From positions 812,001-876,000 of the forward strand of contig NZ_RWJI01000001.1 of NCBI RefSeq assembly GCF_003933235.1: 64,000 bases of DNA. The letters are read 5' to 3'. This stretch comes from Sphingorhabdus wooponensis. GTDB taxonomy: Bacteria > Pseudomonadota > Alphaproteobacteria > Sphingomonadales > Sphingomonadaceae. The position numbers were made by a program, and so were the translations under genes. The notes under the pieces were generated by a model, which saw only the letters and a list, made by a program, of their open reading frames with translations, searched no databases and was not told the origin of the DNA. Of this stretch, positions 1,490-53,800 are shown piece by piece (position 1 is the first letter of the stretch; each line of letters opens with the position of its first letter).

Positions 1490-2935
1490 TTAGCGGAATG
1501 GTGGTTCGTTGAATGCGCGCAGCTTGCGGCTGTGTAAGCTGTTGCCAGCCTCACGCAGCAACTCACAGGTTTGAATGCCGATCTGTAAATGTGCGGCAAT
1601 CGCCTCTTCGTAAAACCGGTTTGCCTGACCCGGCAATTTGATTTCGCCGTGCAGCGGTTTGTCCGAAACACATAGCAAAGTGCCATAGGGAACGCGGAAA
1701 CGATAACCCTGCGCCGCAATCGTGGCGGATTCCATGTCGATGGCAATCGCACGGCTTTGTGAGAAACGCAGCGCGGATGCGGAATAGCGCAGTTCCCAAT
1801 TGCGGTCATCTGTCGTGACAACAGTGCCGGTGCGCATCCGCCGCTTGAGGTCCGCGCCGCTGGTGCCAGAGACATCTTCCGCCGCGCTTGCCAAGGCTTG
1901 TTGCACTTCGGCGATGGGTGGGATGGGAATTTCGGGCGGCAGGACTTCATCCAAAATATGGTCATCGCGCAAATAGGCGTGGGCGAGCACATAATCGCCA
2001 ATCCGCTGCGTCTCGCGAAGGCCGCCGCAATGGCCAATCATCAACCAAGCTTCCGGCCGAAGTACTGCCAAATGGTCGCAAATCGTTTTGGCATTGGACG
2101 GACCAACGCCGATATTTACCAAGGTGATACCCGAACGATCTGGCGCGATCAGGTGATAAGCGGGCATCTGGTGCCGCCGCCATGTGCTGTCGGCGATAAG
2201 CTGCGCCGCATTGTCTGTCGGCTGATCCACATATAGGCCACCGGCACCAGACAATGCGGTGTAACGGCCATTGCCAACCTGCGTGCATGCCCAACTGACA
2301 AATTCATCCACATAACGGTGGTAGTTGGTGAACAGGATATAATGCTGCACATGCTCGGCAGGTGCGCCGGTATAGTGCCGCAAACGGGCCAAGGAAAAAT
2401 CGGTGCGCAGGCCGTCAAATAATGCGAGTGGCGAACTGCTGTTACCCTTTACGCGCAATAGGCCATCGGCGATTTCATCGCCAATATCAGCCAATTCCGT
2501 TGTTGGAAAATGACGGGCTAACTCGTTCGGACTAATGGTTCCTAATTCAAGATCGGCCGAACCATCCAACACATAAGGGAAGGGGATTTCCTGCTTGCTG
2601 CGGCCAACCGAAATTTCGAGCTCATATTGCTCATTCAATAGGTCGAGCTGCTCGCCAATATAATCGGCAAAAAGTTCGGGCTTGGTAAAGGTGGTCCGGA
2701 ACGTACCGATCTTCTCCAGCTTGCCAAATGCGAGGTTCGATTTGGTCTCGCGCGTCTTGCCGGCATAAGTGATGACGAGTTCGGGATAGCAGAAGTCATT
2801 GCGTGCACGCTGCTCTGCGCTTGGCGGCGTTCTGTCCTTCAAATAACCCGCAAGCGCGGATTGAAGGCGTTTTACCGAAGCTTCATATTCAGTAACGAGT
2901 TGATTAATGATGTTTTGAGATTGTTCACTAGGCAT
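1490..2935 (-). CDS. amn: AMP nucleosidase
   Basis: This enzyme hydrolyses AMP to adenine and ribose 5-phosphate and helps control adenylate pools. The 481-residue length matches the E. coli enzyme (about 484). The N-terminal half is the Amn-specific domain. The C-terminal half is a nucleoside-phosphorylase-like fold, with MIGHCGGLRETQ in the purine-binding region and AIDMESATIAAQGYR near the ribose-binding site. ATG 2935 is preferred because GGTGAAG lies about 7 nt upstream; an in-frame GTG at 2941 would add two residues. A terminator separates it from the upstream peroxiredoxin gene, so it probably has its own promoter within a short gap. Confidence 0.93.
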   Translation of the reverse strand: MPSEQSQNIINQLVTEYEASVKRLQSALAGYLKDRTPPSAEQRARNDFCYPELVITYAGKTRETKSNLAFGKLEKIGTFRTTFTKPELFADYIGEQLDLLNEQYELEISVGRSKQEIPFPYVLDGSADLELGTISPNELARHFPTTELADIGDEIADGLLRVKGNSSSPLALFDGLRTDFSLARLRHYTGAPAEHVQHYILFTNYHRYVDEFVSWACTQVGNGRYTALSGAGGLYVDQPTDNAAQLIADSTWRRHQMPAYHLIAPDRSGITLVNIGVGPSNAKTICDHLAVLRPEAWLMIGHCGGLRETQRIGDYVLAHAYLRDDHILDEVLPPEIPIPPIAEVQQALASAAEDVSGTSGADLKRRMRTGTVVTTDDRNWELRYSASALRFSQSRAIAIDMESATIAAQGYRFRVPYGTLLCVSDKPLHGEIKLPGQANRFYEEAIAAHLQIGIQTCELLREAGNSLHSRKLRAFNEPPFR

Positions 2936-2970
2936 AAGCACGCTTCACCGAATTTGACCATTTTGGCAAC

Positions 2971-2997
2971 AAAAAAGGGAGGGTAACCCCTCCCTTT
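2971..2997 (-). terminator. Rho-independent terminator of the peroxiredoxin gene
   Basis: A perfect 10-bp stem (2974-2983 with 2988-2997) and 4-nt loop, read on the minus strand, runs straight into a T-tract (A-run 2971-2976 on the plus strand). It lies 31 bp beyond the peroxiredoxin stop codon and just upstream of amn. Confidence 0.85.
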
Positions 2998-3028
2998 CAT
3001 CTAGCATTTAGTCAGACTTTAGTAAAAA

Positions 3029-3508
3029 TCAGAGCTGTCCCAACATATATTCAGCCGAACTCACGTTGAAATCGCCCGGTGCTTCGACATTGACTTGCTC
3101 AACCACGCCATCGTTGACGACAAGCGAGAAACGCTGGCCGCGCTTGCCCATGCCAAATGCGCTGCCGTCCATTTCTAATCCGAGCGCAGCCGCGAAATCG
3201 CCATTGCCGTCTGCGAGCATAGTGATAGCGTCTGAGCCGCTCGCCTTATTCCAAGCGCCCAAAACAAATGCATCGTTCACAGCCGTGCAAGCGATTTCGT
3301 CTATCCCCTTGGCAGAAAGTTCGTCGGACTTTTCGACAAAGCCGGGAAGGTGGCGTGCCGAGCATGTTGGCGTGAATGCGCCTGGGACAGAGAATAATGC
3401 AACGCGGCGTCCAGCGAAATATTCTGCAGCCTGAACAGGCTGGGGGCCTTCCGCGGTTGCCTTGACCAATTTAACGTCAGGGATTTTGTCGCCGATAGAG
3501 ATGCTCAT
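3029..3508 (-). CDS. Peroxiredoxin of the Prx5 (redoxin) type
   Basis: This is a thiol peroxidase that reduces hydrogen peroxide and organic hydroperoxides, usually with glutathione/glutaredoxin or thioredoxin as reductant. The peroxidatic site PGAFTPTCS is at about residues 39-47, and the Prx5-typical stretch ACTAVNDAFVLGAW follows near residue 73 with a second cysteine. The 159-residue length fits the family. AAAGGAAA precedes ATG 3508. It is followed by its own terminator and is probably monocistronic. Confidence 0.92.
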   Translation of the reverse strand: MSISIGDKIPDVKLVKATAEGPQPVQAAEYFAGRRVALFSVPGAFTPTCSARHLPGFVEKSDELSAKGIDEIACTAVNDAFVLGAWNKASGSDAITMLADGNGDFAAALGLEMDGSAFGMGKRGQRFSLVVNDGVVEQVNVEAPGDFNVSSAEYMLGQL

Positions 3509-13974: not shown

Positions 13975-14295
13975 ATGGCTACCAAAACCGTAGGCGATAA
14001 TGATTTCGCCGCAACTGTGCTTGCATCAGGCAAACCCGTATTGGTCGATTTTTGGGCCGAATGGTGCGGCCCATGCAAGATGATTGGCCCAAGCCTCGAA
14101 GAAATCAGTGATGAGCTTGCTGGGCAAGTTGAGATTGTGAAGCTGAACATTGATGATCATCCTGACACGCCTGCCAAATATGGCGTGCGCGGGATACCCA
14201 CGATGATCCTTTTCAAGGGTGGCGAAATTGCCGATACCAAAGTCGGCGCCGCTCCTAAGGCACAATTGAAAAGCTGGCTCGAAGCCGCGCTTTAG
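13975..14295 (+). CDS. trxA: Thioredoxin
   Basis: This is a cytoplasmic protein-disulfide reductant of 106 residues with the active site WCGPCK (Trp30 to Lys35), the family-typical VDFWAEWCGPC context and the cis-proline region GIPTMILF. ATG 13975 is chosen over an upstream in-frame start because AAAGGAGA lies just ahead of it. Its TAG stop codon lies inside the terminal repeat of the adjacent MITE-like element, yet the C-terminus (LKSWLEAAL) looks complete. It is 81 bp downstream of addA and may be co-transcribed. Confidence 0.96.
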   Translation: MATKTVGDNDFAATVLASGKPVLVDFWAEWCGPCKMIGPSLEEISDELAGQVEIVKLNIDDHPDTPAKYGVRGIPTMILFKGGEIADTKVGAAPKAQLKSWLEAAL

Positions 14296-14560
14296 GGTCA
14301 GAACCACTTAAATACACCTCCGCGGTTTGAGGCCATTTTGTTCAGTGCAAGGCGGCAAAGCGCAGGCTTAGTGGTTCTAAGTCTAGCTTTGCCAACGCGG
14401 CAATGGACAAAATAGATCAAATCCGAAGGACGTCAAAATGGCCTAGATCTCGAAATAAAATGCCCTTGCAGGCAGAATAACTGCCTGCGGCGGACATTTT
14501 CCTTCGATATCTTTGCCATTTTGACGCCGCGAAGGTGGATTTAAGTGGTCCTAACCCTAA
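14292..14560. mobile_element. MITE-like cruciform element with 34-bp terminal inverted repeats
   Basis: The two ends (14292-14325 and the complement of 14527-14560) match at 30 of 34 positions and both begin TTAGGGT. Inside are two independent hairpins. The left one has GGCAAAGC (14354-14361) paired with GCTTTGCC (14386-14393). The right one has CGTCAAAATGGC (14431-14442) paired with GCCATTTTGACG (14515-14526), and a central GCAGGCAG/CTGCCTGC stem (14468-14488). There is no open reading frame of note, so mobility would need a transposase in trans. Ends reading TA-GGGT would suit a TA-targeting (IS630/Tc1-mariner type) transposase; that is inference. The stop codons of trxA and argJ both lie in the terminal TTAGGG. 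Confidence 0.75.
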
Positions 14561-15780
14561 CTGCGATAATCGGCGTTGATGCTTATGTAGCCGTGGGTCA
14601 GGTCGCACGTCCACACTGTGGCGTGCCCCGACCCAAGGCCCAGATCAACGCCTATTTCGATTTCCTTTTGCTTTAGGTGACGCGCCACGGGCGCTTCATC
14701 ATAATCGGCCACCGCCAGTCCGTTGCGCGCGACCAAGGTCGAACCAAAACGGATGGAAAGCGTGTCACGATTTGCAGGCTCACCGGCCTTGCCAACAGCC
14801 ATCACGACGCGGCCCCAATTGGCATCCTCACCCGCTATCGCCGTTTTGACCAAGGGTGAATTGGCAATCGCCAAGCCGACGCGCCGCGCGCTGTCATTGC
14901 TGGCGGCCCCCGTAACCTGAATTTCGATGAATTTCTGCGCCCCTTCGCCATCGCGCACCACAAGATGCGCTAATTGGCGGCAGACATCGCTCAGCGCGGC
15001 GGCAAAGGCGTCTGCACCGGCATCATCATATGATGTTAGCTGCATATTACCTGCTTGGCCTGTGGCAAAAGCAAGCACAGTGTCGCTGGTGGAGGTGTCG
15101 CTATCCACGGTAATGCAGCTAAAGCTTGATTTATTGGCGGCAGACAAAAGCTGCTGCAAAAACGCCGCGTCGACGGCCGCGTCAGTGAATATATATCCCA
15201 ACATGGTGGCCATGTCGGGTGCAATCATACCCGAACCCTTGATTATGCCGACAATCTGAACCTTACGACCATCGACCATCGCGCTGGCGGTTGCGCCCTT
15301 GGCGAAGGTATCGGTGGTGCCAATGCCATGCGTGATATCTGCCCAACTGCATGGTGCCGCGCCAAAAGCCGCTTCAAGACCGGCCTGCGCCTTGTCGATA
15401 GGCAAAGGCACGCCAATAACGCCTGTCGAAGACACGAATATCTCGGTCACATCGCAGCTCAAATGCGCTGCAACCTGCCCAACAATAACGTCCACCGCAT
15501 CTTTGCCCCGCTGCCCTGTGAAAGCGTTGCTGTTGCCCGCATTCACCACCAACGCACGCGCAAGGCCATGCCGCAAATGCGCGCGGCATAGGTCGACCTC
15601 AGCCGAACAGCATAAATTTTGCGTGGTTACACCCGCAACCGTTGTGCCCGCATCGAACCGAACATAGCTCAGGTCACAGCGGTCCCATTCCTTATACCCT
15701 GCGCGGGCAACATAGGGCGTTGCACCCGCGATATCGGGCATGATAGGAAAAGATATGGCGAGTGGAGAAGTGCTAGACAA
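14557..15780 (-). CDS. argJ: Bifunctional glutamate N-acetyltransferase / amino-acid acetyltransferase ArgJ
   Basis: ArgJ recycles the acetyl group between N-acetylornithine and glutamate in arginine synthesis, and bifunctional forms also use acetyl-CoA. The 407-residue protein contains ATMLGY near residue 190, where self-cleavage leaves a new N-terminal catalytic Thr, and ends in the canonical INADYRS. The best start is TTG 15780, because the residues that follow (SPLAISFPIMPDIAG) match the usual N-terminus; ATG 15741 is the alternative. The TAG stop lies in the right terminal repeat of the neighbouring element. Confidence 0.95.
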   Translation of the reverse strand: MSSTSPLAISFPIMPDIAGATPYVARAGYKEWDRCDLSYVRFDAGTTVAGVTTQNLCCSAEVDLCRAHLRHGLARALVVNAGNSNAFTGQRGKDAVDVIVGQVAAHLSCDVTEIFVSSTGVIGVPLPIDKAQAGLEAAFGAAPCSWADITHGIGTTDTFAKGATASAMVDGRKVQIVGIIKGSGMIAPDMATMLGYIFTDAAVDAAFLQQLLSAANKSSFSCITVDSDTSTSDTVLAFATGQAGNMQLTSYDDAGADAFAAALSDVCRQLAHLVVRDGEGAQKFIEIQVTGAASNDSARRVGLAIANSPLVKTAIAGEDANWGRVVMAVGKAGEPANRDTLSIRFGSTLVARNGLAVADYDEAPVARHLKQKEIEIGVDLGLGSGHATVWTCDLTHGYISINADYRS

Positions 15781-51988: not shown

Positions 51989-52453
51989 ATGCAGCGTATC
52001 TTAATTGGTGGTGTTGCTGCCTTACTCATGGCGGGCGGGGGATTATTGGTCTGGCAAAGCATGGCCTATCAACCGCAGCTGATTCCTGCGCCGCCACCGC
52101 CTGAAGTCATTTCCGACAAGCTGCCGGAAGCAGGGACCGATGCGCCAGCCTTTGGTCCCGCGCCACCTACCCCGCCAGAGGCACCCAAAGCCAGTCGCGA
52201 GGAAATGCGGTTCAACCGTTATGACCGCAACAAGGATGAGCTTATTTCTCGCCTTGAAATGATGGGCAGCCGCACCAAGGCGTTCAAGGCGCTGGACAGA
52301 GATGGGAATAATTTGCTGACGTTTGAGGAATGGGCCGCCGCCACGGGGCAGCGCTTTGCGAGTGCTGATGGTAACAAAGATCAGCTTTTAACACGCAAGG
52401 AATTTGCAAAAACCCGTCCTAAAATAACGGCAAAGCCTGGGTGCCGTTGCTAG
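51989..52453 (+). CDS. EF-hand calcium-binding protein with N-terminal membrane anchor
   Basis: The 154-residue protein has an N-terminal hydrophobic segment (IGGVAALLMAGGGLLVW, residues 5-23, uncleaved anchor or signal), a Pro-rich linker, and three EF-hand-like loops in order: DRNKDELIS, DRDGNNLLTFEE and DGNKDQLLTRKE. AAGGGG precedes the ATG. Calcium binding in the periplasm is likely from the motifs; the cellular role is unknown. It is convergent with trmFO. Confidence 0.85.
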   Translation: MQRILIGGVAALLMAGGGLLVWQSMAYQPQLIPAPPPPEVISDKLPEAGTDAPAFGPAPPTPPEAPKASREEMRFNRYDRNKDELISRLEMMGSRTKAFKALDRDGNNLLTFEEWAAATGQRFASADGNKDQLLTRKEFAKTRPKITAKPGCRC

Positions 52454-52462
52454 AGCCTGTTC

Positions 52463-53800
52463 CTAGGCTGCGATGGCTTGGGCGGCGATCCAGCTGCTTA
52501 AATCTGTCCGCGCCCTGCCTGTCATCGCGGCCTTGCGCGATTTCTTGTGCACTTTCTCGTCCAACGGAGCGAACAGGCCAAAATTAATGTTCATTGGCTG
52601 ATAATCGTCGGCCAGCGCGTCGCCCGTGATATGGCCAAGCAATGCACCAAGTGCGGTGGTCGATGGTGGTGCTGTAATTGAGCGTCCGGCCAACTCCGCG
52701 GCCGTCATAATGCCAGCCATCAAACCGACCGCACTGCTCTCCACATAGCCTTCGCAGCCGGTGATCTGTCCTGCAAAGCGGATATGCGGCGCAGATTTCA
52801 ACCGTAGCTGACGATCCAATAATATGGGCGAGCGGATGAAGGTGTTACGGTGCAAGCCACCAAGCCGCGCAAATTCAGCTTTTTCGAGGCCCGGAATAGT
52901 GCGGAGTAGTTCGACCTGTGCGCCGTGCTTCATCTTTGTTTGAAAGCCGACCATGTTCCACAAAGTGCCTTGCTTATTATCCTGCCGCAATTGCACAACG
53001 GCATGTGCCCAACGGCCTGTTCTGGGGTTGTCGAGGCCAACTGGCTTCATAGGGCCAAAGCGCAGCGTGTCTAATCCACGCGATGCCATGACCTCAATCG
53101 GCATGCAGCCTTCGAAATAGGGCGTGTTGGTTTCCCATTCCTTGAACTCCGCTTTATCTGAGTCCAGCAAACCTTGATGAAAGGCACGATATTGCGCCTC
53201 ATCCATCGGGCAGTTGATATAATCCTTGCCATCGCCCTTGTCCCAGCGTGAGGCATACCATGCAATGTCCATGTCAATGCTGTCATGATAGACAATGGGT
53301 GCAATTGCATCGAAGAAAGCGAGGCGGTCCTCACCGGTCTTGGCCATGATGCTTTCGGCGAGATTTGTCGCCGTCAGCGGGCCAGTGGCGACAATCACGG
53401 GGCGGTCGGATGGAATGACGTCCACGCGTTCGCGCACGATTTCAATGTTGCTGTTGTTCTCAAGCTGTTTTGTGACTGTTTCAGAAAACACATCGCGATC
53501 GACGGCCAGGGCGGAGCCCGCTGGTACTTTGGCGACTTCAGCTGCCTGCATAATCAGCGAACCCAAATCACGCATTTCCTGATGCAACAGGCCAACGGCA
53601 TTATTTTCGGCGTCATCTGACCGGAAACTGTTGGAACATACCAGTTCAGCCAAGCCATCTGTTTGATGGGCGGGCGTCATGTCCCCTGAGCCACGCATTT
53701 CCGATAGCCGCACACGGATACCGCGTTGCGCCAATTGCCACGCGGCTTCGCATCCCGCGAGGCCGCCACCGATAATCTGCACATCATAATTTTTGGTCAT
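52463..53800 (-). CDS. trmFO: Methylenetetrahydrofolate-tRNA-(uracil-5)-methyltransferase TrmFO
   Basis: TrmFO makes ribothymidine at position 54 of tRNAs using methylenetetrahydrofolate and FADH2. The 445-residue protein has an N-terminal FAD-binding [14 protein letters not shown], the [13 protein letters not shown] segment, and a C-terminal [20 protein letters not shown] second nucleotide-contact motif. ATG 53800 gives the family N-terminus; the frame remains open to 54160, where it would cross nnrD, without family support. Confidence 0.95.

Follow-up and report, generated by a model that had tools for sequence, protein, structure and literature searches.

A miniature inverted-repeat transposable element supplies both stop codons of the convergent trxA and argJ genes in Sphingorhabdus wooponensis

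The BOX, RUP and SPRITE repeats of Streptococcus pneumoniae are small folded repeats that, according to the accessible part of PMC3049150, are over-represented between convergent genes; the same text reports that, in one pneumococcal genome, 36 annotated genes take their stop codon from BOX. ERIC (or IRU) and Correia elements are likewise small, with inverted ends, TA termini and a target duplication, as described in the portion of PMC2229807 available to us. Closest in design are the miniature inverted-repeat transposable elements (MITEs) of the IS5 family, which have inverted ends, duplicate a TA, prefer a YTAR target (reported for IS5 duplications in the consulted part of PMC10359306), lack coding capacity and occur in many copies. 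Here we describe an element of S. wooponensis that is like each of these systems in the properties just listed. It lies in a 64,000-nucleotide stretch of contig NZ_RWJI01000001.1 (positions 812,001 to 876,000, forward strand), hereafter the window, by whose own numbering all positions are given unless a genome or contig is named.

The element between trxA and argJ

In the window, trxA (thioredoxin, 106 aa; 13975–14295, plus strand) and argJ (14557–15741, minus strand; 394 aa from the start codon picked by our gene finder) converge on an element with 34-nt arms at 14292–14325 and 14527–14560. Recomputing the arms reproduced the 30 of 34 complementary positions (88%) given by an earlier sequence-only reading of this DNA. 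Once the outermost TA is removed from each side, the body proper spans 14295–14557 (263 bp), starts with GGGTC and ends with ACCC. It is bordered by two copies of the duplicated TA target, the left at 14293–14294, where relatives have the empty site GCGCTTTAACTGCG, and the right at 14558–14559, placed by comparison with empty sites. Arm pairing defines the terminal inverted repeats (14295–14325, plus; 14527–14557, minus). Between them lie hairpin arm A (14326–14421, plus; helices 2–4 of the covariation model) and hairpin arm B (14431–14526, plus; helices 6–9), which is mostly absent from shortened forms of 166–178 bp. In the TAG stop of trxA (14293–14295), the target provides TA and the element's first base provides G; in that of argJ (complement of 14557–14559), the TA is completed by the element's last base. 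This confirms that both stops fall within the element ends. Both genes have identical called lengths in several relatives, in agreement with the earlier remark that the proteins look full-length. The 263-bp element does not fully contain any ORF of at least 80 aa. Gene ends throughout come from our own codon-usage finder, trained on the window and applied to other genera too, in place of a published annotator.

Within the window the left 34-bp end is unique at up to 3 mismatches, but it recurs genome-wide. The search of host and related genomes proposed with the sequence-only reading found 11 full-length copies (83–100% identity, the window's copy among them) in the 2.18-Mb, 8-contig host genome (G000), together with an 86-bp derivative at C1:199540–199625 that supplies both stops of a prephenate dehydrogenase and an acyltransferase gene. 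With up to 2 mismatches, element ends were found in 34 of the 45 genus genomes, some of which have a single end only, against two hits in total for a reversed-pattern control; one genome, G416, has 198 ends. The 34-base version of the end matches 64 stretches, all from Sphingorhabdus, Sphingomonadales or Sphingomonadaceae. Family-wide, the element was matched in at least 28 of 397 genomes and 12 of 96 genera, its own included, these being lower bounds as two candidates per genome were scored. Inverted ends that recur in other copies, TA duplication at a site found empty in relatives, the lack of a transposase gene, dispersed copies, and outer ends common to autonomous IS5-family elements (see below) establish the trxA–argJ element as a MITE, as its appearance had suggested. 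At one host copy, L003 (G000:C1:366907–367172), the neighbouring genes on both sides, as called, extend into the element for 36 and 17 bases, which may have added short element-encoded tails to the two proteins.

Target sites, stop codons and scars

The trxA–argJ junction was compared across the genus, where argJ is present in 44 genomes and 30 loci were fetched and read. In 16 of the 30 the junction is bare, and the two stops overlap by 4 bp (TTAA or CTAA); in the window, the element sits inside the TA of these overlapping stops with a TA on either side. The comparison therefore documents both the empty site and the TA duplication that had been suggested for checking. The remaining junctions hold a 104-base partial copy (G389), a 14-base insert (G415, G416, G428 and G410), a 9-base gap of other sequence (five genomes) or a different gap of 56–58 bases (three genomes). 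None of the 29 other junctions carries the full element, and other copies exist elsewhere; a plain intergenic structure conserved at trxA–argJ is rejected by the bare overlaps. Because the body begins with GGG on either strand, insertion changed both TAA stops to TAG, and neither protein's length was altered. The sequence-only reading had offered a target resembling stop codons and replacement of the original stops as alternatives; both apply, since YTAR includes TAA and TAG and the TAA stops of the empty sites were rewritten. In the three junctions with 56–58-bp gaps (L134, L137 and L138, from G400, G399 and G409), the sequence before argJ ends in ...GACCCTAAC or ...GTCCCTAAC, possibly marking another small element.

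A second convergent pair, encoding an alpha/beta hydrolase and a DNA ligase, also carries the element in the host, again with both stops rewritten and protein lengths unchanged. Among the 25 of 28 ligase loci that were read, six carry a 14-base insert, identical in five and with an altered centre in the sixth, three have longer gaps and 14 were called as bare 4-base overlaps; a fifteenth (G406) looks bare by sequence, although the finder picked another frame. All 15 bare alleles have C or T before the TA, the bases with which the ligase stop can form, and all seven occupied alleles have G or A, as if this base were freed once the element provides the ligase stop.

To place these pairs among other insertions, we considered 43 copies from G000 and G416, comprising 34 full-length and nine shortened forms, with L200 left out as it shares the site of L002. 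The G416 sample takes 32 of 33 end pairs chosen by eye from the 100 places listed of 198. A pyrimidine precedes the TA in 40 of the 43 copies, and a purine follows the right TA in 41, which defines the YTAR target. YTAR contains TAA and TAG, and with GGG opening the body on either strand, any such stop that runs into the element is converted to TAG. At least one stop is supplied by 13 of the 43 copies, and both stops by three. The expected share is 6.5% for random non-coding TA and 18% for YTAR (57 of 319 non-coding and stop YTAR sites, drawn from the window and from flanks in G000 and G416, with L009, whose locus overlaps L003, and L200 omitted). The observed overlap is thus 1.7 times the YTAR expectation (p = 0.03). 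YTAR preference accounts for most of it and leaves a small excess, and strong stop targeting by the larger copies was rejected. Nor are the larger copies clearly enriched between convergent genes (10 of 43 copies, against 9 of 49 gene pairs in the window). Elsewhere in the family, ends could be placed in 23 of the 28 loci found (four of the 23 from the host's genus); nine of these copies supply a stop, three of them both.

A much stronger association was seen at what appear to be remnants. The pattern TAGGGTC(NN)GACCCTA occurs at 56 sites in 24 of the 45 genus genomes, while the reversed pattern occurs at none; the host genome itself has no such scar. In 49 of the 56 the centre is AG or CT, giving the 16-bp scar TA-GGGTC(AG/CT)GACCC-TA, the product expected of slippage between the GGTC...GGTC or GACC...GACC of the two ends. 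At 48 of the 56 sites, and at 35 of the 41 distinct loci, an adjacent gene terminates in the scar's TAG, with loci grouped by flank similarity and scored as a stop if any member is; by locus, p is about 1e-20 against the YTAR expectation, most scars sitting in genomes other than the two that provided it. At 14 sites (seven loci) the TAG serves both genes, and 36 of the 56 scars lie between convergent genes. Stop association is far greater for scars than for larger copies (Fisher p about 3e-7). Given the modest enrichment of the larger copies, the strong scar bias rests on a survivorship argument: presumably, remnants elsewhere are free to vanish, and at stops only those that keep the stop survive. 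At dnaA, where 30 of 46 places were read, the scar is present in G427, G421 and G415 and decayed forms in G418 and G389, with an intact TAA in the host.

Shortened forms, which arise by internal deletion, also occur. In L012 and L195, the internal deletion runs exactly between direct repeats (GCCATTTTG and CTTCGAT, respectively). Five G416 copies (L193, L196, L198, L200 and L201) share an identical 86-bp deletion in arm B, and for this reason the arm-B-deleted form seems to have spread in G416 as its own subfamily. Elsewhere in the window, another convergent pair has a 9-bp gap, GCTAGAGCCTGTTCCTAGG, with TAG-type stop edges around a short insert (52453–52463), perhaps the scar of a different element.

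Candidate helper transposases

A transposase with matching ends, as the sequence-only reading proposed to look for, was found in other genomes, and the proposed helper is based on these, since PF01609 and PF13358 gave no transposase hits in the host genome. The decayed transposase L206 of G428 has TAGGGTCAGGACT at its end, and its fragment scored 152 bits against the NCBIfam IS5-family model NF033580 (cut-off 110). Relatives of L206 are present in 174 of 397 family genomes and were not found in G000. A scan of 33 transposase loci for ends starting with TA found, at 12 of them, TA-GG[GC]TCAGG as inverted ends 831–848 bases apart. At six of the 33, all in other genera, TAGGGTCAGGAC stands at both ends of an IS5-type element of 831–844 bp. 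The other 21 have no such end pair, L250 among them with a weaker version. The ends common to the MITE and the IS5-type elements cover about 12–13 bp. When 36 PF01609/PF13358 loci were separately scanned for this end motif, just two resembled a transposon bearing it: L206, with one end and no left end found, and L211, with both; L211, in G407, measures about 870 bases and has ends GGGTCAGGATT and GGCTCAGGATG. Most other end-motif hits near these loci were set aside as neighbouring element copies. Taken together, IS5-family elements of about 840 bp in related genera are the likely helper, and IS5-type transposases would move the MITE.

A 1440-bp end-to-end interval in G416 (L169, about 2041–3480; G416:C12:204040–205479) appears to be an element copy split by an IS630-type insertion sequence, and was rejected as an autonomous partner.

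Proposed history, rivals and known systems

We consider the best explanation, with a probability of about 0.85, to be that a non-autonomous MITE of the IS5 family enters YTAR sites, rewrites stops to TAG and shrinks by slippage to a scar that keeps them. An IS5-family transposase, presumably acting in trans, would insert the MITE at the TA of a YTAR and duplicate that TA, as comparison of empty and filled sites indicates. With GGG at the start on either strand, any TAA or TAG stop read into the body would become TAG; at a palindromic stop (TTAA or CTAA) common to two convergent genes, both codons would be rewritten and protein lengths kept, as observed at trxA/argJ and hydrolase/ligase. The YTAR target, together with probable selection against insertion within genes, would bring copies to gene ends. 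The palindrome would later be lost when short direct repeats within the ends slip on one another, a step suggested by its products, and the resulting scar would retain both TAG stops and could erode or vanish.

The folded interior invites other explanations. As predicted by the sequence-only reading, it forms strong hairpins: the DNA fold has a z-score of -12.8 and the RNA folds of the two strands -15.2 and -16.4, with none of 200 shuffles as good in any case. A 99-pair three-way structure leaves 96.4% of cells paired in an alignment of 25 copies from 10 genera, made up of 21 of the 23 other-genome copies with placed ends and four host copies (eight of the 25 from the host's genus). Both-side changes affect 67 of the 99 pairs, amounting to 418 cells, compared with 124 after shuffling and no more than 82 for six slid versions, scored on the same sequences from which the structure was derived. 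The pair cells comprise 2281 Watson–Crick, 102 G–T, 41 A–C and 48 other combinations. The interior match across 12 genera, its own included, exceeds what a plain MITE needs, and the covarying pairing reflects either selection for paired arms or their repair by template switching. The element might be kept at convergent ends because its RNA terminates, protects or insulates both messages, the stops being a by-product. The very stable fold on both strands, the compensatory changes across genera and the full elements at the trxA–argJ and hydrolase–ligase pairs speak for such a role, but terminator-like sites (a GC-rich stem plus a T run) are at chance level in the 901 bases scanned (two weak sites, 1.4 expected), leaving the bidirectional terminator proposed between trxA and argJ without support. 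An Rfam search of the 3269-base locus returned four matches at E up to 5, the best at 0.18 and all below gathering scores, which led us to reject a known RNA family. These two null results count against a simple RNA role, as do the corresponding places in the relatives read, which are either bare or occupied by a 14-bp remnant, with a partial copy or other spacer in one case, and the larger copies, which have no clear preference for convergent pairs; we regard the explanation as unlikely. Promoter-like sites numbered three in the 901 bases (0.6 expected), one of them within the element on the minus strand. A purely mutational origin of the covariation, in which template switching in a quasi-palindrome copies one arm onto the other, is a serious contender at somewhat under even odds. 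It would fit the large excess of both-side over one-side changes and the scarcity of non-Watson–Crick cells, and the accessible text of PMC8794818 reports that template switching creates and maintains hairpins. However, repair by itself predicts neither the persistence of the structure and its near-equal length across genera nor the near-invariance of some arm sequences among copies.

The remaining alternatives concern the sites. The 16-bp palindrome could have no link to the element and be under selection as a gene-end motif in its own right, given its concentration at stops and between convergent genes and its sharing by several species at dnaA and the ligase gene, within a scar search confined to the genus. 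Yet its letters are those of two element ends fused, the same TA at trxA–argJ and at hydrolase–ligase is occupied by the full element in the host and by a 14-bp insert in other species, and the dnaA motif is decayed in two genomes and absent from the host, all of which makes this account very improbable. More evenly balanced, though tilted slightly against it, is the idea that patchy occupancy stems from repeated insertion into the same TA instead of one old insertion followed by losses. Opposite orientations at the same TA (the window versus G389, and L002 versus L200) and mosaic states on the argJ–ligase tree favour repeated insertion; recombination between the 34-bp ends could likewise invert the element, and dnaA scars common to several related genomes and lost in G000 fit a single insertion with losses. 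Returning to insertion, rewriting and shrinkage as the preferred history, one may speculate, with considerable doubt, that the element end and target are matched to the stop codon on both strands, such that insertion, partial deletion and scar can all preserve termination; gene ends would then be a safe harbour exploited by the family, with the two-arm fold serving mobility or removal.

A target and an end that in combination convert TAA or TAG stops to TAG on either strand, with a scar that keeps the stops, constitute a simple, testable rule for low-harm entry into a compact genome. The finding of empty, full, shortened, scar and restored stages at the same places is useful for deciding between selection and template-switch repair, and it points to transposon history behind some of the TAG stops, and of the short gaps separating facing genes, in these genomes. 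Literature searches, with subscription papers mostly outside their scope and without an insertion-sequence database, yielded no recognised report of the element. The accessible part of PMC3049150 makes no mention of both convergent stops being rewritten at a duplicated TA, or of stop-keeping scars, and 'stop codon' and 'convergent' are both absent from the consulted part of a MITE review (PMC10969869). Repeats that provide stops are already known from BOX, and we found no report of a two-strand form with stop-keeping scars. By description, as opposed to sequence, BOX, RUP and SPRITE are different elements in a different host; ERIC and Correia, also compared by description, belong to other hosts, and the available portion of PMC2229807 states no stop-codon rule for them. 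The outer ends of the trxA–argJ element also occur in IS5-family elements from within its bacterial family. It differs from IS5-family MITEs in that no helper was found in its host genome, and in its long interior, whose two covarying hairpin arms are conserved across genera.
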